DNA from: an uncultured Clostridia bacterium
GTDB lineage: Bacteria > Bacillota > Clostridia > TANB77 > CAG-508
Direction of reading: 5' to 3'
NCBI GenBank assembly: GCA_947623595.1
Contig: CANQHC010000021.1
Location: 1 to 38,143, forward strand
DNA: 38,143 nucleotides
This document shows positions 11,057 through 35,449 of the stretch, piece after piece; position 1 is the stretch's first letter; every line of letters begins with the position of its first letter. The position numbers were made by a program, and so were the translations under genes. The notes beneath the pieces were generated by a model. The model was not told where the DNA came from. It did not search any database and was given only the letters and a program-made list of their open reading frames with translations.

Positions 11057-12767
11057 TTACTTGCTCTGCTTCCTTAATGCTTCCACAGCTTCTTTTATTC
11101 TATTAACAACACTTTCCTTTGACCATTCATCCCAAAAATCAACTGTTGCACTATTAGGTTCATTATCTGGCTTATCAACTAATATTCGACTCGGCAGCAA
11201 ACTTGCATCTCCAACTATCAATGCTTCCCCAATATCCAATATTGGTAGCATTTCTGCATAATTTCCAAGATTATCCGGAAGCAATTTCTTTATAACATTC
11301 TGATCATCCACATTGGTTAATCTCATTGCAATAAAATTGTTTGCCTGACTCAGAACTGTTCTATTCACTTCTGAAGGGCGCTGTGTTATTACTACCAAAC
11401 CAACACCATATTTTCTTCCTTCTTTAGCTATTCTTTCAAAACTTGATAAACTTGCCGTTTCTATTCCCTGCCTTGCACTCTTTGGAATATATAAATGCGC
11501 TTCATCACAGAATAAAGCTATTGGATGAATTTTTTCTATATCTGTCCATTGCTGAATAGAAAAAATCACTCTTGCAATTAACGAAACAATTAATGGCAAA
11601 ACATCCGATGGAACTTCCGAAAAGTCTATTATTTTTACCCCCACCAGCGTTTGATGCGGATGCCAACAACATTTCACAAAGTTTTTCCATATAGTCATAT
11701 TTCATCAGATCCTCTTTATTAGAAAACATAAAATTCAATCGTTTATCAGAAATCTTATTTTCTAATCTTTGAACAAATCTTGACAGTTTACCGTAAAAAT
11801 CCCCTTGTTTTGTTCTATTATTCGCTCCTGAAACCATTTCTGTATCCTTCGCACGTAGTTTTTCAACTAATTCATTAATATTGTATGGTATAGGACTGTC
11901 AATGGTAAAAAGATCTTGCATTTGTTTTTTACCTTCTGTCTCTAAGTATTTAGATTTCAATTCAATAACATATTTACTAAACATCATTGCCTGATTTGGT
12001 GCATTATTATCGGATCTATCTAACAGCAATGATAACATTTCATCATATGTCAGCAACCAATAAGGCAAAAACATAATATCATCCGATATTATATTACCCG
12101 GTCCTGCTATTTTATAATGTCTAATCCCTTCCCCAACTATTGTACTATATTCTCCATGTATATCAAAAAGAATTGCATTTGCTGATTTTAATTTTTCTAT
12201 TTGTTCTATAACTGTTGCAACGGTAAATGACTTTCCGGAACCTGTACTTCCAGTAATAACTGCATGCCTTTGAAAAAATTTATTTCCATCTAAATATGCC
12301 TCAGCAGTGTCATTTAAAACATACTTTCCAATTTTCAATGGGTTATCCATCATTGAACTACTTTGAGAAATTACACTCATAAAACCTGAAAGAGTTTCTG
12401 AAGACATAGTAAAACATTCTGCCTCAATCTCCGCTACTGATTGTAAAGTTCTTTTGAATATATTCTCTTTACTGCCAAGTTTATCAATAAAAGTACCAAC
12501 TAAAGATATTTTAACCAAATCATAAGAACTCATTTCCTCCAAGTCCGCATCTTCCATTAAACTATCTGTCGGATTATATTTTCTTACTATTTTATTTACC
12601 ATTCCAATAAGATATTGCCCAACTTTTGAGGAACGAATTACTACTAAGTGATTAACTTGTACATTTGATAATAATTGTGCATCTATGATATGAACAACAA
12701 CTGTTGCTGTATCTACACTTTCTACTTTGCCTATACATTTTTCTTTTTTTAAATTAATAATCATCAT
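11057..12767 (-). pseudogene. herA: HerA-type ATPase of a SIR2-HerA defence pair, frameshifted
   Basis: HerA is a hexameric FtsK/HerA-clade ATPase that assembles with SIR2 in an anti-phage complex. The N-terminal HAS barrel (residues 1-95) is followed by Walker A GSTGSGKSFT at 173-182. Walker B is ALFCDEAHLYIP, and the sensor region is LVVITQRPSEVNRTVLSQ. The reading frame breaks at a run of five C (plus strand 11638-11642): one frame reads SNAGGGKNN and soon ends, the other resumes VKIIDFSEVPSDVLPLIVSL. Removing one base restores a protein of 569 residues, normal for the family. ATG 12767 or 12764 follows AGGAGGGG. The break may be a sequencing error, phase variation or true inactivation; the rest of the gene shows no decay. 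Confidence 0.85.
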
Positions 12768-14636: not shown

Positions 14637-16169
14637 TCATTTTACATTACTAATTATTTTAATATATCTCCGTTTTTTTGTTTCAGCTGTTTTTTTCACT
14701 TTGCCCATTGCTACCAATTCATTCAATAACTGCCTCGTTCGTGCTCCTTTTAATCCAATGTAGCTTGCAACTTCTTCTGTACTGTATTCAACATTTTCGC
14801 TCATATTCTGCAAAATCTGCTTATGCCTATCAGATAATGTATTTCCATCTTGTATAGAATTATCTGCTGATTTTTCTGCTGATTCTGCTGATTTTTCTGC
14901 TGATTTTGCTAAACTATCTGCTGCTGAAACAATATTCAGTTCCAACGTGACCTGATCCAACACCGTATCTTCCACCAACTCCGGCTGCATCCAGCCTGCT
15001 TTCTCCCACACATCTAAAATCGTCGGGAAACCGGAACCGGCATTATCTCCGAATCCAACCATTCTAAGCATTGTCTGCATTCTTGGATTTCTCGGTTTAG
15101 AATTGCCGCCACGATAGATTTCTTCTTTCGGAAGTTTCAATGTTCCCGGATTTGTAAATGAAAAGCCATTCGCGGTTTTAACAATTTTCAGTGTTCCTGC
15201 ATCGACCAAATAATCTGCATGTATAATCAGATTGACAAATGCCTCTCTGATTGCTTTATGCACCGGCGAATCATCTACCCGATAATCTTTTTCAAGCACA
15301 AATGCTTTCTTCAAATCAGATGTCAGTTTCGGCGAAACTTTTGTAAAAAAATTAAAGAGATTATTTTCCCAAGTTCCATCATAGGTAATTCTGTCATTCC
15401 ATCTGATATCAGGCGTAACTTCCGTTTCATCACGATAGTCCATAAAAATATTATCAAATTCGTCCCTTATAGCTAAACCTTTTCCAAACATCATAAGTCC
15501 GGCCAAAGTCAGACCTTCAAGTCCATTTCTTCTGTCTCTTCTATATCCTCCTAATACCTCCAGAAATTCTTTGTCATCATAAGTATTCCATATGTGTTCG
15601 GGATTTCTCGTCTGAAACATTTGGCGGTAATGCTTCATTGTTTCCGAATCAATGTCGCCCATTGTATAATATTCCAAAATAAGGCTGTCATTTCCATCAG
15701 GATTTTGATCGCGAATCATGGCTCTTACCTCATGCTCTGTCGCATGATAATCGCCTTCATGATTTCTTTTATAGGTTCCCTTATATGGATTTTCGCCAAC
15801 ATATACCGGACGGAATTTATAATCTGCTCTTGGGACATGAATAACAATTAAACTGATGTCATCTTCTTCAACAATAAACACATCCTCGTCTTTCAGAATG
15901 TTTACATTGACTTTATTTCCATTAATCGTATTCCAAAAATCTTCAATCTGCTTTTTTGGATTTTGTATCCCTTGTATCATAAAGCGTTCTTCAGGTGCCT
16001 TTTTTGACTTATCTTCATCAATGCCAAGAATAATATATCCGCCTTTCGTATTTGCAAAGCCTGAATATGACTCATAGACAGACTTCGGCACACTCTTTTC
16101 TGCTTTCTTACACTCGATATCAACTTTTTCACCATCTAGGATTAATTGTTTTATTTCCTGCATGTCCAT
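14637..16169 (-). CDS. Schlafen/AlbA_2-domain protein with winged-helix tail
   Basis: A 510-residue protein of the ATP-binding/Schlafen AlbA_2 family. The AlbA_2 core occupies about residues 1-150, with EKVDIECKKAEKSVPKSVYES, SGFANTKGGYIILGIDED and YKGTYKRNHEGDY. The middle (FVNLIIHADYLV, FTNPGTLKLP, RNPRMQTMLRMVGFGDNAGSG) is the usual RecG-related ATPase-like domain, with G-rich loops. The end is a winged helix (TEEVASYIGLKGARTRQLLNEL), preceded by a SAEKSA repeat linker. Relatives are putative regulators and often sit in defence islands. AAGG lies nine bases before ATG 16169. It is 90 bases after the methyltransferase-like gene, perhaps as a separate unit. GC content is higher than around it. 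Confidence 0.85.
   Translation of the reverse strand: MDMQEIKQLILDGEKVDIECKKAEKSVPKSVYESYSGFANTKGGYIILGIDEDKSKKAPEERFMIQGIQNPKKQIEDFWNTINGNKVNVNILKDEDVFIVEEDDISLIVIHVPRADYKFRPVYVGENPYKGTYKRNHEGDYHATEHEVRAMIRDQNPDGNDSLILEYYTMGDIDSETMKHYRQMFQTRNPEHIWNTYDDKEFLEVLGGYRRDRRNGLEGLTLAGLMMFGKGLAIRDEFDNIFMDYRDETEVTPDIRWNDRITYDGTWENNLFNFFTKVSPKLTSDLKKAFVLEKDYRVDDSPVHKAIREAFVNLIIHADYLVDAGTLKIVKTANGFSFTNPGTLKLPKEEIYRGGNSKPRNPRMQTMLRMVGFGDNAGSGFPTILDVWEKAGWMQPELVEDTVLDQVTLELNIVSAADSLAKSAEKSAESAEKSADNSIQDGNTLSDRHKQILQNMSENVEYSTEEVASYIGLKGARTRQLLNELVAMGKVKKTAETKKRRYIKIISNVK
14862..14910. repeat. short tandem repeat coding the SAEKSA linker
   Basis: The plus strand repeats TCTGCTGATTTT with small changes about four times. 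It encodes SAEKSAESAEKSAD between the catalytic part and the winged helix of the AlbA_2 protein. Such repeats can change copy number by slippage and so alter linker length. Confidence 0.7.
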
Positions 16170-16259: not shown

Positions 16260-17225
16260 CTATGTATTAAATTGTCCCTCCGCATAATACGGATAGTATC
16301 TGTATATCTTCTCAAATTTTTCAATTTCATCATAAGTAATTCCATAAAATTCATCTTTACGTGTTTCATACTCGCTTTTTGAAACAGGTATATTTTTTAA
16401 TATTATCTGAATTTCTTTATTGGTCAATTTGGGAATATCAATATTAAATATATCCTCTTGACTTGAAATATATTTGTATTTTTCATTTAAATTGCTTTTG
16501 CTTATTTTTTCTTTCAATGCTTGATTAACAAGAATTCCCCCTATAGTTAACATTGGTGCCCCGTCCTTATAAGTTAAAAATAGCAACTGTAAATATTCCA
16601 CTTTATCATTTGGATCCAATATGTTTCTCTTCTCTATTATTCTACTTATTTGTGTATTCATAATCCTTCTTATAACAAATGGAATGTTTTTATTTGTGTA
16701 CATCTTTTTTTCAATTTTTTCATCGAAAAAGTTTCCAATTCGTTCTTTAAAAGTTTCCATTTTTTTGGACTGATTTTCACCTTTAAATGAATAGTTACAG
16801 GATATAAAAAACATACTTCCTGTGTCAATATTTCTACAAATCGTTTCAATATCATATAACATATATTCCGAAAAAACATCGTCATAGTCTAACCATATCA
16901 CATTTGTTTTTTCAGCAAAACCACTAATCTGTGGTAAAATATCATTCGTAGAGCCATATCTCATTTGTATACACTTTAACGGTTTATTAAATTCATATCT
17001 AACTTGTCTTGAGATTTCTGATTCAATACTTATCATATCAGTAACTCCAAATTCATTATGAATAAGGAGAAAATCCGTAAAATATTTAGCCCCCAATCCT
17101 ATATATCTCAAATCCCTGTTGCCTTCTAAAATTTGTATTTCTTTAACTAATTCGCATAATATCTTTCTTTCAATTGATTTTGATGGTCGAATTTGATAGT
17201 TTATCGTTTGATCACTTCCTGGCAT
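16260..17225 (-). CDS. methyltransferase-like Rossmann protein, third gene of PP-loop operon
   Basis: A 321-residue protein that looks like a SAM-binding Rossmann fold. It has RYIGLGAKYFTDF at residues 40-52 (motif I position), MISIESE at about 64-70 (end of strand 2, acidic), and TNVIWLDYDDV at 107-117 (motif IV position). NCBI-style annotation of relatives is O-methyltransferase, but a catalytic role is unproven. The C-terminal third is helical and charged. GGAG lies eight bases before ATG 17225, two bases after the stop of the GHKL ATPase gene; GTG 17234 would overlap it. The tight spacing indicates one complex or pathway with the two genes upstream. Confidence 0.65.
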   Translation of the reverse strand: MPGSDQTINYQIRPSKSIERKILCELVKEIQILEGNRDLRYIGLGAKYFTDFLLIHNEFGVTDMISIESEISRQVRYEFNKPLKCIQMRYGSTNDILPQISGFAEKTNVIWLDYDDVFSEYMLYDIETICRNIDTGSMFFISCNYSFKGENQSKKMETFKERIGNFFDEKIEKKMYTNKNIPFVIRRIMNTQISRIIEKRNILDPNDKVEYLQLLFLTYKDGAPMLTIGGILVNQALKEKISKSNLNEKYKYISSQEDIFNIDIPKLTNKEIQIILKNIPVSKSEYETRKDEFYGITYDEIEKFEKIYRYYPYYAEGQFNT

Positions 17226-17227
17226 AT

Positions 17228-18550
17228 TTAACACTCCGCATCTATATAGTACTCAAAAGTTTTTTCTCCAACTTCTTTATAAGAAGATGCATTCAGTAAC
17301 TCTTTTAATTGATCAGCTTCTTTCTTTGGCTTTTTGTACGTTATTGTAACATTTGGGTTAGGATTTGCTACAATTTTCTTTATTGATATCTCTCGGTTGT
17401 CTTTTATAGCTTCTACATTTTCTATAGTTAATTCAACCCCTGACATATTAGAAATTTTTTCCTCAACACCATCATCATTATCTCTGGTATTTTTCTTTAT
17501 TTCATCTAATATATTTTTTACTATCTTAAAAATTTCTATCATTTTCTCTCGTGCTCTCAAATATAATAATGATGTTTCATCCAACCCAGTTTTTGTTGTA
17601 TTCCATGGTAATCTATCTGGATATTTAGAAGTAAAATAGACAATCCCTCTAAACCCTGCATAATCATTATGGAACGTAACACCACTACTTTTATTCTCCA
17701 TATCCTTCCACGTGGTCAATGATGTTCTATCGGCTGCTATTACCAATCTCCCATTACAATAAATATACCATCCCGCATTTTCTGGTTTATATTTGCTTCC
17801 CTCACGTGGTGCTATTCCAGCTAATATTTTCACATTAACACCATTGTCTTCATATGTTTCTTTAATAGACTGTATTTCAGTATTATCAATCAAAGCAACA
17901 TTATTTCCAACTAAATTTTTGCCATTAACTATAATTGACAATCCATGCGCTATGTCTAAACCCACACGCCTTTGCACATGTTCTATTACTTCATTCTCAA
18001 AGCTTGTCGTTGCTAATTCATTTGCAATTTCATCATGTAACCGTGTTACTTCAATAAAGGTTCCAGTCTCACTAATATCATTATTCATATTTTCTTTATA
18101 TGATGCTATTTCAAAGTCCCAATTTGCGCTATCGTCAACCACCCATTTTTCAACATCTAATTCAATTTCAAATTCTGTTGTTTTGGTTTTTGATTTTATT
18201 GTAAAAAAATTTCCCAACTTGAATAGCGCTCTTTTCATTCCTATTCCGAAAATCCCTGTAGTTTCTGCCTCTTCAGCTTTTTTTGATCTTGGTCTACCAA
18301 AACGAAAAGCATAATTTTCCGCCACATCTAAAGGTATTCCACCACAATTATCTTTAATAGAAAATTTTTGATTACTAAAATTGACTTCTATACTTAATCC
18401 TTCAAAATCATTATTACCTTTAATTTTTCGTGCACCATCTATACTATTATCAATCAATTCAATTATCGCCTGTTTTAATAATATATCTCGGACAAGCATA
18501 TTTACAAAAAATTCTTTTGTTGGATTTGCTTTAACTTTCTTTTCAGCCAT
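17228..18550 (-). CDS. GHKL (Hsp90/MutL/MORC-type) ATPase
   Basis: A 440-residue protein with a complete GHKL ATP-binding fold at the N-terminus: QAIIELIDNSIDGA at residues 27-40 (N box with Glu31 and Asn35), FSIKDNCGGIPLD at 63-75 (G1), and TTGIFGIGMKRALFKLG at 97-113 (G2). The transducer-like part follows (GWYIYCNGRLVIAAD, LPWNTTKTGLD, as in MORC and Hsp90 relatives). No membrane segment is seen. Members of this group dimerise on ATP binding and often work as clamps. GAGGAG is eight bases before ATG 18550; the gap to the upstream PP-loop gene is 13 bases. The partnership with a PP-loop protein and a methyltransferase-like protein is the unusual feature. Confidence 0.8.
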   Translation of the reverse strand: MAEKKVKANPTKEFFVNMLVRDILLKQAIIELIDNSIDGARKIKGNNDFEGLSIEVNFSNQKFSIKDNCGGIPLDVAENYAFRFGRPRSKKAEEAETTGIFGIGMKRALFKLGNFFTIKSKTKTTEFEIELDVEKWVVDDSANWDFEIASYKENMNNDISETGTFIEVTRLHDEIANELATTSFENEVIEHVQRRVGLDIAHGLSIIVNGKNLVGNNVALIDNTEIQSIKETYEDNGVNVKILAGIAPREGSKYKPENAGWYIYCNGRLVIAADRTSLTTWKDMENKSSGVTFHNDYAGFRGIVYFTSKYPDRLPWNTTKTGLDETSLLYLRAREKMIEIFKIVKNILDEIKKNTRDNDDGVEEKISNMSGVELTIENVEAIKDNREISIKKIVANPNPNVTITYKKPKKEADQLKELLNASSYKEVGEKTFEYYIDAEC

Positions 18551-18563
18551 ACTTTTTTCTCCT

Positions 18564-19553
18564 CTATCTGTTATTATCTCGCTTCTGCTTCACAAAATTC
18601 CTATATTCTCTCGTATACTCATATGAATCAGCAAAAATATTATTTACAGCTGCAAATAGTTGAGGTTCATTTTTCTTCATAGACTGTAATTCCTCTTCAA
18701 AATTTTTGCCATATGGGCATCCAGCACATCCTGTCCTTTTTAGTCCATATTCGCTATAACACTTACTATTAACAATATTATAATGTTCCTCATAAACCTT
18801 TTTTGTTTCACTTAAATACCAAAATATAGGTCTATATTCATCTCCCTCTTCCCCATTAGACGTGAAGCATGTCTTATAGGCACTTCTTCTAGCTCCCCCC
18901 TCTGATTTTCTAACACCATATATGTTTAAATCAAACTTACCATCTTTTTTAAACTTATTTGCCACCTTTTTTTTAGCAAAATAACAACATTTATTTGAGA
19001 TCTTAAACTTAGGTGGATTTTGAATCATAAATTCTTTCAAATATTGATTATATGCAATATTAAAACTACTTTCTCTACCTGAATCAGATTTTTCAAAATC
19101 ATTACACCACCATCTTAATGCTGCCCTACAGTTAGGATATTTTTCAAGTAATATTTCTAATCCTTCATCCTCCCATTGAAAATTATGAGCTTGTAACCTA
19201 CTGATCCATTCACTCACTTGTTTAGATAAAAATGGTTGTCCATACTCTTTACAACAGAGTGGAATTGGCTTAATTGCTCTGATGCGTTCGATATGTATTC
19301 CGTATTTTTTCTCCAAAAAGATTAAATGTTCCTTAGTGGCTTTGAATTCTAACCCTGTATCAAAAAAAGCATATGTAATTTTTTTAGCTTCCTCATATTT
19401 TTGGCACAAATCAATCAATACATCGCTATCACTTCCACCACTTATAGAACATAATATCTTCTCATACTTCTTCAATTTTGAATGTGTAATGACTATTGAT
19501 TCTACAATTGTAACATCATTCGGTGCATCTTTTATAATTTCATTGAGTTCCAT
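18564..19553 (-). CDS. PAPS-reductase-family PP-loop protein
   Basis: A 329-residue adenine-nucleotide alpha-hydrolase. SISGGSDSDVLIDLC at residues 36-50 is the PP-loop SGGxDSxxxL, which binds ATP or PAPS and forms adenylates. Cysteines are abundant and ordered: Cys100-Cys101, Cys189-Cys190, Cys229, Cys276 and Cys279 (KRTGCAGCPYG), suggesting a metal or Fe-S site as in DndC-like and tRNA-thiolation enzymes. IYGVRKSEGGARRS is the usual substrate-loop block. It is longer than assimilatory PAPS reductases, and no sulfate-assimilation gene is nearby. It starts the three-gene operon. A role in sulfur modification or nucleotide transfer is inference. Confidence 0.8.
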   Translation of the reverse strand: MELNEIIKDAPNDVTIVESIVITHSKLKKYEKILCSISGGSDSDVLIDLCQKYEEAKKITYAFFDTGLEFKATKEHLIFLEKKYGIHIERIRAIKPIPLCCKEYGQPFLSKQVSEWISRLQAHNFQWEDEGLEILLEKYPNCRAALRWWCNDFEKSDSGRESSFNIAYNQYLKEFMIQNPPKFKISNKCCYFAKKKVANKFKKDGKFDLNIYGVRKSEGGARRSAYKTCFTSNGEEGDEYRPIFWYLSETKKVYEEHYNIVNSKCYSEYGLKRTGCAGCPYGKNFEEELQSMKKNEPQLFAAVNNIFADSYEYTREYRNFVKQKRDNNR

Positions 19554-20202: not shown

Positions 20203-20445
20203 CTAACGTACTACAAGTTCTTGATACATTTCCATTAGTTTTGCAACACAACTTTCTGCTGTTGTTGTTTTAATATCAAATCCATATGCCCGCATAACCG
20301 CTTTATCATTTTTTCTAAGCGCTTCTCTTAATTCTTTAGGTATTAATAAAGGATCATACAAATCCGCAACGTACTGTTTGGATATAATTTTCTTAATTCT
20401 TTCGAATGGATCTGCTTTTAATTTCATTTCATGTATATTTCTCAT
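20203..20445 (-). pseudogene. chimeric fragment: ASCH start joined to DNA methylase end
   Basis: The 80-codon frame begins IHEMKLKADPFERIK, like the first strand of ASCH-domain proteins (MKLxxxPFxxIKxGxKTIExRL). It then switches to ADLYDPLLIPKELREALRKN, DKAVMRAYGF and VAKLMEMYQEL. The second part matches the C-terminal tail of large type II DNA methyltransferases of the YeeA/MmeI kind (LYDPxxMPxELxxAHxxxDxAVxxAYG). The join at about residue 20 is in frame. GGAG seven bases before ATG 20445 remains, so a short protein may be made. I read it as a deletion fusing two genes of a lost restriction or defence cluster. Confidence 0.5.
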
Positions 20446-25275: not shown

Positions 25276-26562
25276 CTATCTATATGTATTTTCCATTCTC
25301 TTTCCAATTTTCATTTTCCTTTTTATATCCATAAGTTTTTTATAGTGTTCAGATTTAAGTGTTTCATACCGTTCTGTTACGATTGGCCGAACGCCGCGGC
25401 GAATGACGTATTCCTTGCCAATTGGCATATAGAGCACGTCCTCTACCGGTAAATTCATCTTCACTGACATGTTTTTTGCAGTCTGTAAATCCATTCCACC
25501 AAGATATATCTGTGTATCCATGTTATTGAGAATGGTGGTTGCATTTTCCTCCCCATAAATCATTTTCAGCTGTGATTCACTTTGTAAGAGAACGCTTATT
25601 GAGATATTTGCAGAACGAATGATGCTCACGTACTTTTCCAAATTACTGATTGGCGTACCGCTGGCAAAGTCGTCTCCAATCAGATGTACCTGCAACGGCA
25701 GGGATTCATCCGGAAAGCAGTGTGAATACTCAAACAGCTGGTTTAATATCTGGCTATACATTATGTTCACATATGTATGATATTGTTCTGCAAAAGCCGG
25801 AACCGTAATGAACACAACCGATTTTTTATGGGCAATCTTGGTAATGTCAAAACAATTTCCCCATTTTACAAAAGTTCTCAATTCCGGCGTGAACAGATTT
25901 GAGAGTGTCGTGTTCAGCGTTGAATAGATGCATGCGGCTGTATTTGGGGCATTTATTTTAAAGGCGTTCCAGCATGAAAATGCAAACATTGCAATGTCAT
26001 TTTGAAACCCTGCCAGGGTTTCAAACGCTTCATCCAATGCCGTGGTCATTCCCAAATCCGACCTGCCCGGCTTCAGGGCATCAAAGTTATCTAATACGTC
26101 TGCAATTGTTGCCTTACCCTCTTTCTCTACAACTGTAAGCCCCATGATTGCATTAAAAAGATCGATTGCCGACAGGTTCCAATACTTATCCTTCTGGTTC
26201 TCGGTTTTACCATGTGCTCCTTCGATAATCGCCTTACTTAGCTGGGCAATGTCTTCCGCAGTGTTTACATTACGCATTAAGTCATAACTGTGCAGAGACA
26301 TTTTCGGGTTTGTAAAATCCACATCATAAACGTCAAAATTTTTACGCCTGCAGAATTCCATCAATGCTTCAATGTCCGCCCTTTTGGAACCGGTACATAT
26401 TAAACTTGTATTGTCTGTTTCCATGATTCTTGGATAGTTATATGATAATGTTTTACCCGTTCCGCTCCCGCCAATGACTGCCACATTATTGTTTAATCCA
26501 GTAATATCCGTATCTGTACTAACAGAGTATCCTTTTGCTAAATGAATCTGTTCTGCTTTCAT
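25276..26562 (-). CDS. VirD4/TraG-type coupling ATPase, short form
   Basis: A 428-residue ATPase of the type IV coupling protein family. Walker A is VIGGSGTGKT at about residues 29-38, and Walker B is HLIGDDFASG. LYMPIGKEYVIRRGVRPIV is near the end. Normal VirD4/TraG proteins of conjugative elements have about 600 residues with two N-terminal membrane helices; these are absent here, so this is a soluble short form starting just ahead of the ATPase core. GAGGAGG precedes ATG 26562. It follows the ClpP-like gene by three bases. In conjugation it would link DNA to the secretion channel; without membrane helices its role may differ. Confidence 0.78.
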   Translation of the reverse strand: MKAEQIHLAKGYSVSTDTDITGLNNNVAVIGGSGTGKTLSYNYPRIMETDNTSLICTGSKRADIEALMEFCRRKNFDVYDVDFTNPKMSLHSYDLMRNVNTAEDIAQLSKAIIEGAHGKTENQKDKYWNLSAIDLFNAIMGLTVVEKEGKATIADVLDNFDALKPGRSDLGMTTALDEAFETLAGFQNDIAMFAFSCWNAFKINAPNTAACIYSTLNTTLSNLFTPELRTFVKWGNCFDITKIAHKKSVVFITVPAFAEQYHTYVNIMYSQILNQLFEYSHCFPDESLPLQVHLIGDDFASGTPISNLEKYVSIIRSANISISVLLQSESQLKMIYGEENATTILNNMDTQIYLGGMDLQTAKNMSVKMNLPVEDVLYMPIGKEYVIRRGVRPIVTERYETLKSEHYKKLMDIKRKMKIGKRMENTYR

Positions 26563-30318: not shown

Positions 30319-33093
30319 TTAAAGTTTCCCAAGAGTTTCCTCTAATGCACTTTTAGCATCTTCATTTCCCTGCTCCGCACTCTTCCTGTACCACTTTACT
30401 GCTTCTTTATAATTTTGTTCCACTCCTCTTCCAAAATAATAGCAGTTTCCTAAATTCTTTTGAGCATCTGCATCTCCCTGCTCCGCACTCTTCCTGTACC
30501 ACTTTACTGCTTCTTTATAATTTTGTTCTACTCCTTCTCCAAAATAATAGCATTTTCCTAGAACCCATTGAGCAACTGCATTTCCCTGCTCCGCACTCTT
30601 CCTGTACCACTTGACTGCTTCTTTATAATTTTGTTCCACTCCTCTTCCTGAATAATAGCATGCTCCTAGAACCCATTGAGCAACTGCATTTCCCTGCTCC
30701 GCACTCTTCCTGAACCACTTTACTGCTTCCTTATAATTTTGTTCTACTCCTCTTCCAAAATAATAGCAGTTTCCTAAATTCTTTTGAGCATCTGCATCTC
30801 CCTGCTCCGCACTCTTCCTGTACCACTTGACTGCTTCCTTATAATTTTGTTCTACTCCTTCTCCATTCGCATAGCAGTTTCCTAAATTATTTTGAGCATC
30901 TGCATTTCCCTGCTCCGCACTCTTCCTGTACCACTTTACTGCTTCCTTATAATTTTGTTCTACTCCTTCTCCAAAATAATAGCATTTTCCTAGAACCCAT
31001 TGAGCAACTGCATTTCCCTGCTCCGCACTCTTCCTGTACCACTTGACTGCTTCTTTATAATTTTGTTCCACTCCTCTTCCTGAATAATAGCATGCTCCTA
31101 GAACCCATTGAGCAACTGCATTTCCCTGCTCCGCACTCTTCCTGAACCACTTTACTGCTTCCTTATAATTTTGTTCTACTCCTCTTCCAAAATAATAGCA
31201 GTTTCCTAAATTCTTTTGAGCATCTGCATCTCCCTGCTCCGCACTCTTCCTGTACCACTTGACTGCTTCCTTATAATTTTGTTCTACTCCTTCTCCATTC
31301 GCATAGCAGTTTCCTAAATTATTTTGAGCAACTGCATTTCCCTGCTCCGCACTCTTCCTGTACCACTTTACTGCTTCTTTATAATTTTGTTCCACTCCTC
31401 TTCCAAAATAATAGCAGTTTCCTAAATTCTTTTGAGCATCTGCATCTCCCTGCTCCGCACTCTTCCTGTACCACTTTACTGCTTCTTTATAATTTTGTTC
31501 TACTCCTTCTCCAAAATAATAGCATTTTCCTAGAACCCATTGAGCAACTGCATTTCCCTGCTCCGCACTCTTCCTGTACCACTTGACTGCTTCTTTATAA
31601 TTTTGTTCCACTCCTCTTCCTGAATAATAGCATGCTCCTAGAACCCATTGAGCAACTGCATTTCCCTGCTCCGCACTCTTCCTGAACCACTTTACTGCTT
31701 CCTTATAATTTTGTTCTACTCCTCTTCCAAAATAATAGCAGTTTCCTAAATTCTTTTGAGCATCTGCATCTCCCTGCTCCGCACTCTTCCTGTACCACTT
31801 TACTGCTTCTTTATAATTTTGTTCTACTCCTTCTCCATTCGCATAGCAGTTTCCTAAATTCTTTTGAGCATCTGCATTTCCCTGCTCCGCACTCTTCCTG
31901 TACCACTTTACTGCTTTTTTGTAATCCCCTCTCTGATATGCTTCAATCCCCTTTTTTTCATAATCAATAAATGTAAATCTTTTTGCTTCTTTTATTTCAT
32001 TCTTTTGTTCTTTTGCGTTTATGTTGCTATCTTCTTCTGTTCCTTCTTCATAGAAATCAACAGCCGGCAAAGTCTTATAGGCATCTGAATCAACCATATC
32101 AACTTGTTTCATTTCAAAATTGACATCTAAATTCTGTTTGCTCCATTTACTTTCATACAAATTATTCAATTCCTTATAAAATTCTTCCGCCTTCTGGTAT
32201 CTATTATTTTCATCATATGAGCATGCTTTCGCTATCACTTGGATAAGCTCATTACTTATTCCTACAAGTTCCGGTAATTTTTCACCTCGTATTCTTTTTC
32301 CTAACGCTATATCATCTACATAACCGGTATCGGATGAAAATGGCAATCGATTATTATTTGATAACTGATATAGCACAAGTCCTAAACTATAAATATCCAC
32401 CCGCCAATCATATTTATCTTCACCTTTTCTCATAAACTGTTCAGGCGCTCCATACTCTTTTGTTCCAATTGATGTAACCGCATAATCTTGATTTTCAAGA
32501 ATTTTGGATATGCCAAAATCCCCCAGCATATATTCACCGCGGTTATTGATGAATATATTTTGTGGTTTTATATCTCTATGTATAATACCAAGCTTATGAC
32601 ATTCTATTAATGCTTTACAAATATCCAAACCAATCTTTATTATTTCGGCTTCAGAAAATTTCTTACCGTTTACAACATACTTATACAAATTGTCATAAAG
32701 TTCCATTCGAATTAGTAGGTCACATCCATATCTAAAATCTTCTTCCCATTCATCATAATCATAATCCAGATAAGATACGATATTACTAGCCCCTCTCAAT
32801 TGATACATTAATTGAATCTCTTTCTCTGCTTTTTCACGTTTATCGTTACATTCTTCCAAATATCTTCTTTTCGCACTTACTGGAAGTTCTCTATATTTTC
32901 CTCTTTTCGTTACTATATTTACTACTTTCATTGCACTCACTTCATCAAAAGTTGTTTTTCGACGCGTGAGTTTAAATACCAATGTCGAATCATTTGACTC
33001 CGAGTTGCGTGATCCCTCTCCAATAGGTGTAGAATTGATGCTCCAATCTTTAAATACTTTCCCATAGCTCTGTATTCTTGTTTCTATTGACAT
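30319..33093 (-). CDS. Ser/Thr protein kinase with Sel1-repeat tail
   Basis: A 924-residue Hanks-type kinase. The domain spans about 15-310: glycine loop TPIGEGSRNSESND, ATP Lys56 in VSAMKVVNI, HRD at 172-174 in IIHRDIKPQNIF, DFG at 192-194, and YGAPEQF at 214-220. A linker of about 70 acidic residues follows. Then come about 15 Sel1 repeats of 36 residues (382-924), each with EAVKWYRKSAEQGNADAQ and LGNCYxxGxGVEQNYK. Sel1 arrays are superhelical protein-binding scaffolds. No transmembrane helix is seen, unlike PknB. GGAGG lies before ATG 33093. It is in an operon with the FHA-ABC transporter and the PP2C phosphatase. Repeat copies are so alike that length may vary between strains. Confidence 0.9.
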   Translation of the reverse strand: MSIETRIQSYGKVFKDWSINSTPIGEGSRNSESNDSTLVFKLTRRKTTFDEVSAMKVVNIVTKRGKYRELPVSAKRRYLEECNDKREKAEKEIQLMYQLRGASNIVSYLDYDYDEWEEDFRYGCDLLIRMELYDNLYKYVVNGKKFSEAEIIKIGLDICKALIECHKLGIIHRDIKPQNIFINNRGEYMLGDFGISKILENQDYAVTSIGTKEYGAPEQFMRKGEDKYDWRVDIYSLGLVLYQLSNNNRLPFSSDTGYVDDIALGKRIRGEKLPELVGISNELIQVIAKACSYDENNRYQKAEEFYKELNNLYESKWSKQNLDVNFEMKQVDMVDSDAYKTLPAVDFYEEGTEEDSNINAKEQKNEIKEAKRFTFIDYEKKGIEAYQRGDYKKAVKWYRKSAEQGNADAQKNLGNCYANGEGVEQNYKEAVKWYRKSAEQGDADAQKNLGNCYYFGRGVEQNYKEAVKWFRKSAEQGNAVAQWVLGACYYSGRGVEQNYKEAVKWYRKSAEQGNAVAQWVLGKCYYFGEGVEQNYKEAVKWYRKSAEQGDADAQKNLGNCYYFGRGVEQNYKEAVKWYRKSAEQGNAVAQNNLGNCYANGEGVEQNYKEAVKWYRKSAEQGDADAQKNLGNCYYFGRGVEQNYKEAVKWFRKSAEQGNAVAQWVLGACYYSGRGVEQNYKEAVKWYRKSAEQGNAVAQWVLGKCYYFGEGVEQNYKEAVKWYRKSAEQGNADAQNNLGNCYANGEGVEQNYKEAVKWYRKSAEQGDADAQKNLGNCYYFGRGVEQNYKEAVKWFRKSAEQGNAVAQWVLGACYYSGRGVEQNYKEAVKWYRKSAEQGNAVAQWVLGKCYYFGEGVEQNYKEAVKWYRKSAEQGDADAQKNLGNCYYFGRGVEQNYKEAVKWYRKSAEQGNEDAKSALEETLGKL
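30322..31950. repeat. tandem 108-base Sel1 repeats in a 432-base higher-order pattern
   Basis: Fifteen units of 108 bases are nearly identical at DNA level. By their variable core they fall into types A (YANGEG), B (YYFGRG), C (YYSGRG) and D (YYFGEG), in the order A-B-C-D-B, A-B-C-D, A-B-C-D-B along the protein. Block copies such as 30661, 31093 and 31633 show spacings of 432 and 540. This shows recent unequal recombination of four-unit blocks. Confidence 0.88.
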
Positions 33094-33106
33094 AACTTAT
33101 CCTCCA

Positions 33107-33967
33107 CTATCTTGAATCTTTTGACACTCTATGTAATAAAAAATTTCCTGAAATTATAAATATAAAAATAAAAATTATAAGTATTCCCCAAACATTATAT
33201 AAATGCCTTGAACTATATTGAAACATATTTTCAATTTCATGTGGAACATTTTGCACTGTTAACTGAATTTTCAGTTTCATGGAATTCAAATTACTCGTTG
33301 TGCCCAGTGCCTCCATCCCCCATCGACTTATCATAATATAAGATACCCAATTCGCCATTCCTTTCATTTCAAATAAAATACCAGAAAATATCAACTGGAC
33401 AATCAGAATATATGGAGCCATAACATTCGCCGTTTCTGTTTTCTTTACTAGACATGAAATACACATTCCCATAGCATCTGCCGCATACATTAGCAACAAG
33501 ATGCTGATATAATATTCTATCAACGTGTTACCAAATATAATTCCATTATCCGGCAATGGATTATCATAATATTTATTTACTCCCACATAGCTTGTACATA
33601 GAATTGCACTTTGAATAATGCAGAGAACAAATTGTATACTGGCTCTAGATAATATGTAACAGCGTATTCTCAATCCACTGACATAATCTCGTTTTATGTT
33701 TGCCCTGTCTTTTACTATAGTCTGAATGGAATTAAAGATTCCTCCCCAAATTGCTGCACTCACCAATACAAAACTTGCAGATTTTGTTCCATCATAATGA
33801 ACAAACATATTCTCTCCTGCTATCCACACTGTTATGATAGATGCAATAACAGGAAACATAAGTGACACCAACAAATTTTTCTTATCACTTAACAATATTA
33901 ATAAATATTGTCTCATCAATAACCGCAATTCTTTAAATCCGCTTATCCGTTTTGTGCCTTTTTTCAT
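33107..33967 (-). CDS. ABC-2-type transporter permease
   Basis: A 286-residue membrane subunit of the ABC-2/ABCG type. It has six hydrophobic segments: one near residue 35-52, one at about 62-80, then 105-125, 145-170, 180-200 and a last near 255-278. RDYVSGLRIRCYILSRASIQ is the typical loop before the second helix of ABCG permeases. The partner ATPase gene lies three bases upstream, so this is the same transporter. The substrate is unknown, although lipids or peptides are usual for the class. Confidence 0.83.
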   Translation of the reverse strand: MKKGTKRISGFKELRLLMRQYLLILLSDKKNLLVSLMFPVIASIITVWIAGENMFVHYDGTKSASFVLVSAAIWGGIFNSIQTIVKDRANIKRDYVSGLRIRCYILSRASIQFVLCIIQSAILCTSYVGVNKYYDNPLPDNGIIFGNTLIEYYISILLLMYAADAMGMCISCLVKKTETANVMAPYILIVQLIFSGILFEMKGMANWVSYIMISRWGMEALGTTSNLNSMKLKIQLTVQNVPHEIENMFQYSSRHLYNVWGILIIFIFIFIISGNFLLHRVSKDSR

Positions 33968-33970
33968 AAT

Positions 33971-35449
33971 CTAATTTCTCCTTATATATTTAGCTGGATT
34001 TTCAGCGACTAACTCATATGCTTTTTTTATACTTGTGCCAAAATATTTTTCAGCCTCATCTGGCGAACCTGAAAAAGCTAATCTTCCTACATCATCTACC
34101 TTTACCATCATGATAATTTGATCAAATAAATTTATATCAGAAACATCATGAATAATAACCAAAATACTCTTTCCAGATTCATGAGCTAATTTTCTCAAGA
34201 TAGTAAATAGTTCTTTTTTCGAAAATGGATCTAAACCTGCATCCGGTTCATCCAAACATAACAATTTCTTATCTGACACTAACTCTTTCGCAATATTTAC
34301 TCTTTTCTTTTCACCGCCACTGCATTTTCTAATAACCGTCTTCTTTTTACTTTCCAAATTTAGTTGCTTTAGTACTTCTTCTACACGTTGCTTGATTTCT
34401 GCCCTTTTAGTATCTGACGGTAATTTTAACCTAGCTGATTCTTTTAATTCTTCTCCCACAGTAAGCATTTCATGAAATACATTTTCTTGTGGAACACTAC
34501 CAATTAAAACTTTTAGTCTATCAAAATTCTCTATAAGATTCTCTCCATAAAAGAGTACTTTACCTTCTACACCATTTGTCTCCATACCATTTAGGCAATT
34601 CATTACTGTGGTTTTACCAGCACCAGAGCCTCCTAGCAATGCCACCAAGTTTCCTTTTTTCACTTCAATTTTAACATCTTTTATAAGTTCTTTCTTTCCA
34701 TGTCGATTGATATCTGGAACTTTTTTGCTGATAATATTAGCACTAATTGCCACTTTACCACCAAAACTCCCCTTACTTATTTCATTGTACAAAAGGTAAT
34801 TTCCTATTATTACACCATTCCAATCACATAAAGATATCCTGTCTTTTTCTCGTAATTTTACTGTTTCATTTACTTGTTTCCCATTTACCCATGTACCTGC
34901 TTTACTTTTACAATCCGACAAATAATAAAAACCGTTTATACAATCAATCTCAGCATGTTTTGCAGATATATACGATTTATTTATAATGATATCATTTTGT
35001 CCATCTCTTCCTAAAGTCCAATTAGATTTTTGCTTTAAAAATATACTCTTCCAATTATTTCCTAATTGGTCTGTCGAGAATAAAATCCAAACCCCTCTAC
35101 TATCCGGAGCATTAAGATTGTTAGCATCTATTCTAAGAATGTCACCATTCTCAAGCATTTTAGGTTTTAGATTTCCATTGATTCCAACATTTATCTTTTC
35201 ACCATTGTAATATGTTCCATTAATACTACCTAAATCCACATAATACCACTCATCCTCAATATGTATAAACTTCCCATGTTTTCTACCTGCTATCGGAGAA
35301 CTTAATATAATATCCGGATTATTTTCCGGTGTTTTTCTTCCTAAAATCCATTCATTTTTATAATCTAATGCCACTTGTCTTATATTCTGATTTTCAAAAA
35401 TAATCAATCTCGCTTCACTAGGTATTTCCAAATATGATTCTGTTTGCAT
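33971..35449 (-). CDS. ABC transporter ATPase with two FHA domains
   Basis: A 492-residue fusion. FHA1 (about 20-110) has WILGRKTPENN, AGRKHGKF and GSINGTYYNGEKI; FHA2 (about 130-215) has WTLGRDGQND, SAKHAEID and AGTWVNGKQV. Both keep the Arg, Ser/His and Asn residues used to bind phospho-Thr. The ATPase follows (about 240-470): LLGGSGAGKTTVMN, CSGGEKKRVNIAKEL and LLCLDEPDAGLD. It resembles ABCG half-transporters with N-terminal FHA, whose activity is set by phosphorylation. The kinase and phosphatase of this operon are the obvious writers of that mark. AGGAGG precedes ATG 35449. Confidence 0.92.
   Translation of the reverse strand: MQTESYLEIPSEARLIIFENQNIRQVALDYKNEWILGRKTPENNPDIILSSPIAGRKHGKFIHIEDEWYYVDLGSINGTYYNGEKINVGINGNLKPKMLENGDILRIDANNLNAPDSRGVWILFSTDQLGNNWKSIFLKQKSNWTLGRDGQNDIIINKSYISAKHAEIDCINGFYYLSDCKSKAGTWVNGKQVNETVKLREKDRISLCDWNGVIIGNYLLYNEISKGSFGGKVAISANIISKKVPDINRHGKKELIKDVKIEVKKGNLVALLGGSGAGKTTVMNCLNGMETNGVEGKVLFYGENLIENFDRLKVLIGSVPQENVFHEMLTVGEELKESARLKLPSDTKRAEIKQRVEEVLKQLNLESKKKTVIRKCSGGEKKRVNIAKELVSDKKLLCLDEPDAGLDPFSKKELFTILRKLAHESGKSILVIIHDVSDINLFDQIIMMVKVDDVGRLAFSGSPDEAEKYFGTSIKKAYELVAENPAKYIRRN

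Follow-up and report, generated by a model that had tools for sequence, protein, structure and literature searches.

A PP-loop protein gene joined to a widespread GHKL ATPase-methyltransferase pair in an uncultured Clostridia bacterium: a candidate modification-linked defence cassette

What might a PP-loop protein, a GHKL ATPase and a methyltransferase-fold protein do together when their genes are packed almost end to end? The question is raised by a 38,143-nucleotide stretch (the window) of contig CANQHC010000021.1 from an uncultured Clostridia bacterium (assembly GCA_947623595.1), in which a check of open reading frames (ORFs) finds the three genes intact and all on the minus strand: PPL, a PP-loop protein of 329 aa resembling adenosine 5'-phosphosulfate (APS) and 3'-phosphoadenosine 5'-phosphosulfate (PAPS) reductases (18564..19553); GHKL, a MORC/paraMORC-like ATPase of 440 aa (17228..18550); and MT35, of 321 aa (16260..17225). 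PPL and GHKL are separated by 13 bases, and GHKL and MT35 by 2 if MT35 begins at the ATG at 17225 (MPGSDQ...), a start conserved in relatives; the alternative given by the ORF tool, a GTG at 17234, would overlap GHKL by 7 bases. The coordinates, strands and gaps agree with a preliminary description made from the sequence alone, and the linkage of the three genes, on which that description depended, extends to other genomes, where the order PPL-GHKL-MT35 recurs at about 70% protein identity while the flanks have no similarity; the arrangement therefore exceeds chance. A scan for promoters and terminators gave no signal above shuffled sequences. Read together with its relatives, the operon is possibly, at slightly less than even chances in our judgement, a horizontally mobile, modification-linked defence cassette of restriction-modification (R-M) type, with PPL in the modifier slot.

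The GHKL-MT35 pair is found far beyond the window. A genome scan with the GHKL protein recovered nine relatives, from Clostridia to Proteobacteria, every one with MT35 directly downstream, and a scan of viral contigs with the GHKL alignment, the productive query there (a single locus came from each of the MT35 and PPL alignments), added 75 more, nearly all with MT35 next. Reduction of the GHKL loci at 80% identity left 42 non-redundant non-clostridial loci; MT35 is nearby in 37 of them, a C5-cytosine (m5C) DNA methyltransferase lies within about 5 kb in 41, in four side and strand combinations, and Vsr is present in six. Only L069 lacks the m5C gene; its contig is short, and a DrmD-like gene lies beside it. 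Carriers include P2-like E. coli prophages (45 of 5426 complete genomes), where the pair sits between the portal and replication genes within a trio annotated as 'ATP-binding protein / O-methyltransferase / DNA cytosine methyltransferase'; the Pf phage PfAC20, whose cytosine methyltransferase its authors assigned to an incomplete R-M system (PMC11878078); and a Microvirga plasmid, on which the pair is nested inside a DISARM cluster with an m5C methyltransferase, Vsr, DrmD, DrmA and DrmC. Compared across these loci, GHKL and MT35 behave as a conserved two-gene core, with PPL as its variable partner, and since this core is widespread the set is not an isolated oddity.

The five MT35-less loci among the 42 keep the m5C gene, and their GHKL protein has an extra C-terminal helical domain. 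At these loci (L086, L091, L092, L093 and L095) the GHKL proteins are 573-586 aa long and adjoin the m5C methyltransferases, and the added domain contains a conserved N-x3-HN motif and is possibly HEPN-like. It has no match in Pfam and none to a HEPN family.

The Clostridia form the exception to the m5C pattern. The window's GHKL belongs to a clade of eight (Shimodaira-Hasegawa-like approximate likelihood-ratio test, SH-aLRT, 100), and at none of the eight loci is there an ORF with m5C motifs near the pair; a PF00145 gene is missing from the whole window genome (97.7% complete) and from that of L003. At five of the eight, PPL lies directly upstream of GHKL, 2-13 bases away. DndB is absent from all five PPL genomes tested, the window genome among them, in which the DndC model also has no match, and the window's cassette contains none of DndB, DndD, DndE, SspB and SspC, in agreement with the preliminary description, which had remarked on the lack of DndB and DndD. 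The other three loci are without PPL; each has a dndB gene on the pair's own contig and strand, at a distance of about 6 to 19 kb downstream. Downstream of the pair in L007 come a PLD-helicase, an SMC-like ATPase, a small protein, DndB and DndC, and after them genes that we interpret as DndD and DndA. The L004 pair precedes helicase and ATPase genes with matches to the DpdE, DpdF and DpdH models, next DndB, and genes interpreted as DndC, DndD, DndE and DndA. Across all loci, then, the pair nearly always adjoins a DNA-modifying set (m5C in most lineages, Dnd at three loci of Clostridia) or else PPL, its neighbour at six clostridial loci. We also observed a hybrid cluster in Lachnospiraceae IMSAGC_003 (L144 4248-18546, and L145), where DpdE-, DpdF- and DpdH-like genes precede a Dnd cluster headed by DndB; it looks as though phosphorothioation genes had been coupled to a restriction set of 7-deazaguanine type.

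The sixth of the PPL loci, L157, came from a survey of 397 genomes of the family around L008, of which it was the one further full-length relative. Its GHKL and MT35 are 44% and 35% identical to those of the window; its PPL, which here too stands immediately before GHKL, reaches 75% identity and clusters with the window PPL (98%). Identities of GHKL correlate closely with those of MT35 (r = 0.996), and those of PPL with the pair less so (0.74). So similar a PPL, standing in an unchanged order ahead of two pairs that differ greatly, argues for a probable functional link that survived reassortment; fast evolution of the GHKL-MT35 pair of L157 could also account for these values. The L157 genome has m5C genes elsewhere, and none was seen beside its cassette. 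At L008 the cassette is preceded by an Ssp-like set comprising a BrxP/SspD-like PP-loop protein, SspB/DUF4007, SspC and an SspA-like desulfurase, together with a helicase, a second GHKL protein and a PLD protein. At L141 4587-11984 and L008 2407-6872, Ssp/BREX-4-like genes are followed by a PbeA-like helicase, GHKL and PLD genes that replace the usual SspE-type effector.

What, then, is PPL? Pfam places it in PF01507 PAPS_reduct (E 5.7e-11), and scans with PADLOC and NCBIfam gave remote matches only. Because sequence searches of the PDB were uninformative, with nothing for PPL and chance-level matches only for MT35, we turned to predicted folds for both proteins. The AlphaFold2 (AF2) model of PPL, with a predicted local distance difference test (pLDDT) score of 84.5 and a weak region at residues 216-234, resembles APS/PAPS reductases most, followed by the [4Fe-4S] tRNA thiolases NcsA and TtuA. 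The PP-loop motif SGGSDSD occupies residues 38-44 (19422..19442, minus strand), and S38, G39, G40, D42, S43 and D44 are invariant in 11 homologues, as are Cys189-Cys190 (18984..18989, minus strand) and Cys276-x-x-Cys279 (18717..18728, minus strand), the two halves of a predicted [4Fe-4S] site, which we take to be the CC...CxxC arrangement of the APS reductase site. In APS and PAPS reductases the catalytic cysteine sits in the C-terminal tail; PPL has no cysteine beyond Cys279, and 'activates and modifies' is therefore a better guess at its role than 'reduces APS'. With 20-22 bits against NCBIfam cut-offs of 154-235, and with no C-terminal catalytic cysteine, PPL falls outside CysH, and a housekeeping role in sulfur assimilation was ruled out, as PPL is far under the CysH models and is tied to GHKL-MT35. 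Its alignment with DndC is confined to the PP-loop (hhalign probability 12%), and its matches to the PADLOC models of SspD/BrxP are weak (33-37 bits over 84-94 positions).

Among 391 sampled genomes of the class, close PPL relatives (at least 72% identity) occur only beside the pair, in the window genome and in one that is apparently that of L002, and relatives at 33-53% identity are lone genes in mostly phage-like surroundings. A plasmid search with PPL returned no match. Clostridial phage-like regions also contain lone PP-loop members of the PPL family, perhaps for a phage DNA or RNA modification; they were recorded at L100, L134 and L136-L139, with one on a viral contig.

GHKL is a PF13589 HATPase_c_3 protein (E 7.6e-15 in Pfam). 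Its N box, ELIDNSID (Glu31-Asp38; 18437..18460, minus strand), has D34, N35 and D38 invariant in 41 homologues, and its G1 (D67-NCGG) and G2 (GIFGIGMKRA) boxes are intact; these three boxes had been reported as intact from the window alone, and we find them, and the intact PP-loop of PPL (Ser38/Asp42), conserved across relatives too. Profiles of MORC4/3 and topo VI B match GHKL weakly, R-M neighbourhoods are found among the relatives, and PADLOC and NCBIfam gave remote matches only. MT35 matches PF20553 (Methyltransf_35) with E 1.7e-96 and 323.7 bits against a curated cut-off of 27, over model positions 2-307 of 309, and is thus a member of that family; PADLOC and NCBIfam gave no match, and our searches found no paper on PF20553. 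Its AF2 model (pLDDT 92) has the class-I S-adenosylmethionine (SAM) methyltransferase fold, with the tRNA methyltransferase Trm1 as its best PDB match, and in the fold comparison no group but Trm1 aligned into the C-terminal extension of MT35; a shared fold alone, in a predicted model, does not fix the substrate. The third protein had been described as a Rossmann protein with methyltransferase-like motifs, of which the methyltransferase fold stands, and it can now be named more exactly, as a member of a curated Pfam family whose link with the GHKL gene is strong.

How such a cassette might work can be sketched. PPL would take the modifier slot held elsewhere by the m5C methyltransferase, adenylating a nucleic-acid site at its PP-loop and thereby activating it; a [4Fe-4S]-type cluster, together with sulfur supplied by a housekeeping desulfurase, could then allow it to place a self-mark on host DNA. 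GHKL would close on DNA as an ATP-driven clamp that discriminates marked DNA, and MT35, as a SAM-binding, Trm1-like partner, would be its reader or effector, so that unmarked incoming DNA would trigger GHKL-MT35 and marked host DNA would not. The restricting step may be the chemistry of MT35 itself, or the work of a host nuclease that the clamp brings in. The boldest form of the proposal, that a single PP-loop enzyme outside Dnd, Ssp and BREX-4 installs a new sulfur self-mark on DNA, read by a GHKL clamp with a Trm1-like effector, the mark being exchangeable (m5C, phosphorothioate or a PPL mark) and restriction proceeding without a classical nuclease, we regard as doubtful. If the cassette works as sketched, one ATPase-methyltransferase core would serve chemically different self-marks (5-methylcytosine, phosphorothioate and a PP-loop product), and what the restriction half reads would become testable by exchanging marks. 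It would also be a sign that gut Clostridia and their phages use a new nucleic-acid modification, and would give a function to PF20553 and to the trio of the P2-like E. coli prophages.

Several points weigh against a defence cassette with PPL as its modifier. The restricting step is the weakest part of the proposal because no nuclease is recognisable in the three cassette proteins by Pfam and PADLOC scans. The 41 of 42 loci with an m5C gene are a raw count, which would include any m5C genes that are simply common at prophage sites. PPL has none of the DndB/D/E or SspB/C proteins by which known phosphorothioation is directed to its sites, and since its distant relatives are lone phage genes it need not mark DNA for the pair at all. 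The three Dnd loci (L004, L006 and L007), moreover, form one clade nested among the PPL loci and have common upstream flanks, so the PPL/Dnd exchange may be a single event and is not counted as three. The preliminary description had suggested an immunity based on DNA or RNA modification; a modification-type context is borne out, because the pair elsewhere sits with m5C methyltransferases and Vsr, in DISARM and upstream of Dnd, and the target of the putative immunity may be DNA or RNA.

The cassette could instead act on RNA, with PPL thiolating or activating tRNA or another RNA, MT35 methylating RNA, and GHKL sensing invading DNA and switching MT35 on as a toxic or protective modifier, to give abortive or translation-level immunity. 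This deserves weight because both enzymes resemble RNA modifiers: Trm1 is the best fold match of MT35 and alone reaches its C-terminal extension, and NcsA and TtuA make up the second fold group of PPL. The C-terminal helical domain of the MT35-less GHKL proteins recalls the fusions of paraMORC with HEPN RNases known from R-M neighbourhoods (PMC3710099), and its presence where MT35 is missing would place MT35 in the effector slot. However, that domain matched no HEPN family, the fold by itself does not give the substrate, and the partners of the pair elsewhere modify or handle DNA (m5C methyltransferase, Vsr, DISARM, Dnd), so that we consider RNA-directed immunity rather unlikely. It is less probable still that GHKL and MT35 are an accessory module, such as a regulator, a counter-restriction device or a modification helper on mobile elements, which improves or guards a neighbouring modifier and does not itself restrict. 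Such a role would suit the addition of the pair to complete systems such as DISARM and Dnd and the lack of a recognisable nuclease, and prophage carriers may gain from shielding their own DNA; yet the prophages, the Pf phage and the PPL loci have the pair and one modifier, with no further restriction gene in the cassette. That PPL is a neutral passenger, a phage-derived PP-loop gene which landed by the pair in a defence island with no functional link, fits the orphan genes of clostridial phages and prophages that are its distant relatives, but is already disfavoured and in our view very improbable: order and spacing are the same at six loci whose flanks are unrelated and whose pairs are of two types, only 44% (GHKL) and 35% (MT35) identical, and PPL relatives of at least 69% identity were never seen without the pair, in a small sample.

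As for known systems, the cassette matches no named one in PADLOC 2.0.0 or NCBIfam, as the preliminary description had anticipated. The company of GHKL ATPases with m5C methylases and Vsr is already familiar: Iyer and colleagues (2008; PMC2292703) described MORC/paraMORC proteins, predicted to act as clamps, beside DNA (mostly cytosine) methylases and Vsr endonucleases in mobile R-M settings. The GHKL-MT35 pair and its relatives share the GHKL ATPase, its predicted clamp role and the m5C methylase/Vsr settings, and differ in their partners; in the parts of that report available, the recurrent partner is a superfamily II helicase with a nuclease, and no PF20553-like or PP-loop partner is named. 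The 'two-component-like' pairs of HEF_HK and Response_reg_2, which occur with a C5 methyltransferase and often Vsr (PMC8011034), likewise combine a HATPase_c_3 protein and a small partner gene adjoining a C5 methyltransferase, but their partner is Response_reg_2 and not PF20553, and in Pfam the window's GHKL and MT35 match neither of the new domains. Dnd, Ssp and BREX type 4 share a PAPS-reductase-type PP-loop modifier, and Dnd or Ssp genes adjoin the pair in four relatives, whereas the window cassette, lacking their DndB/D/E and SspB/C, belongs to none of them. MzaB is remotely similar to the GHKL domain (23.5 bits against an NCBIfam cut-off of 850), with no other Mza gene seen, and the cassette has no drm gene, although DISARM encloses the pair in one relative. 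Nor does the cassette have a recognisable restriction endonuclease, as a Type II R-M system with a GHKL subunit would, MT35 having a methyltransferase fold; gene neighbourhoods are what suggests site-specific DNA modification by the cassette. GrwAB (DUF262) and VcSduA (a Shedu protein with a GHKL domain) were compared and differ, and BceSIV was dropped as a GHKL restriction precedent since the literature pointed to helicase-type and other systems. We found no description of the PF20553 pair, its PP-loop variant or a GHKL and PAPS-reductase defence set in a literature without most subscription papers and without preprints.

The surroundings of the operon in the window had been described as a SIR2-HerA unit on one side and fragments of a restriction-type cluster on the other. 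The SIR2-HerA unit is present, but a Schlafen/AlbA_2 and HATPase_c_4 protein (14637-16169, minus strand), 90 bases directly downstream of the operon, lies between the operon and SIR2. HerA is split into two overlapping frames of 420 and 213 aa (11057-12767, minus strand; model positions 1-377 and 378-576), with G and A runs in the overlap; the split could reflect a frameshift, an assembly error or a slippage site. Among the window neighbours scanned, SspB and SspC had no match. The restriction-type fragments include an 80-aa relic of an MmeI-type (IIG/IIL) enzyme, its C-terminal end only, identified with Pfam and PADLOC at 20203-20445 on the minus strand. The Schlafen/AlbA_2 and HATPase_c_4 architecture recurs near the L008 cassette (L141 2963-4555). 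Farther away, also on the minus strand, are a TraG-like coupling protein (25276-26562) and a Sel1-repeat protein kinase close to an FHA-ABC protein (30319-35449).

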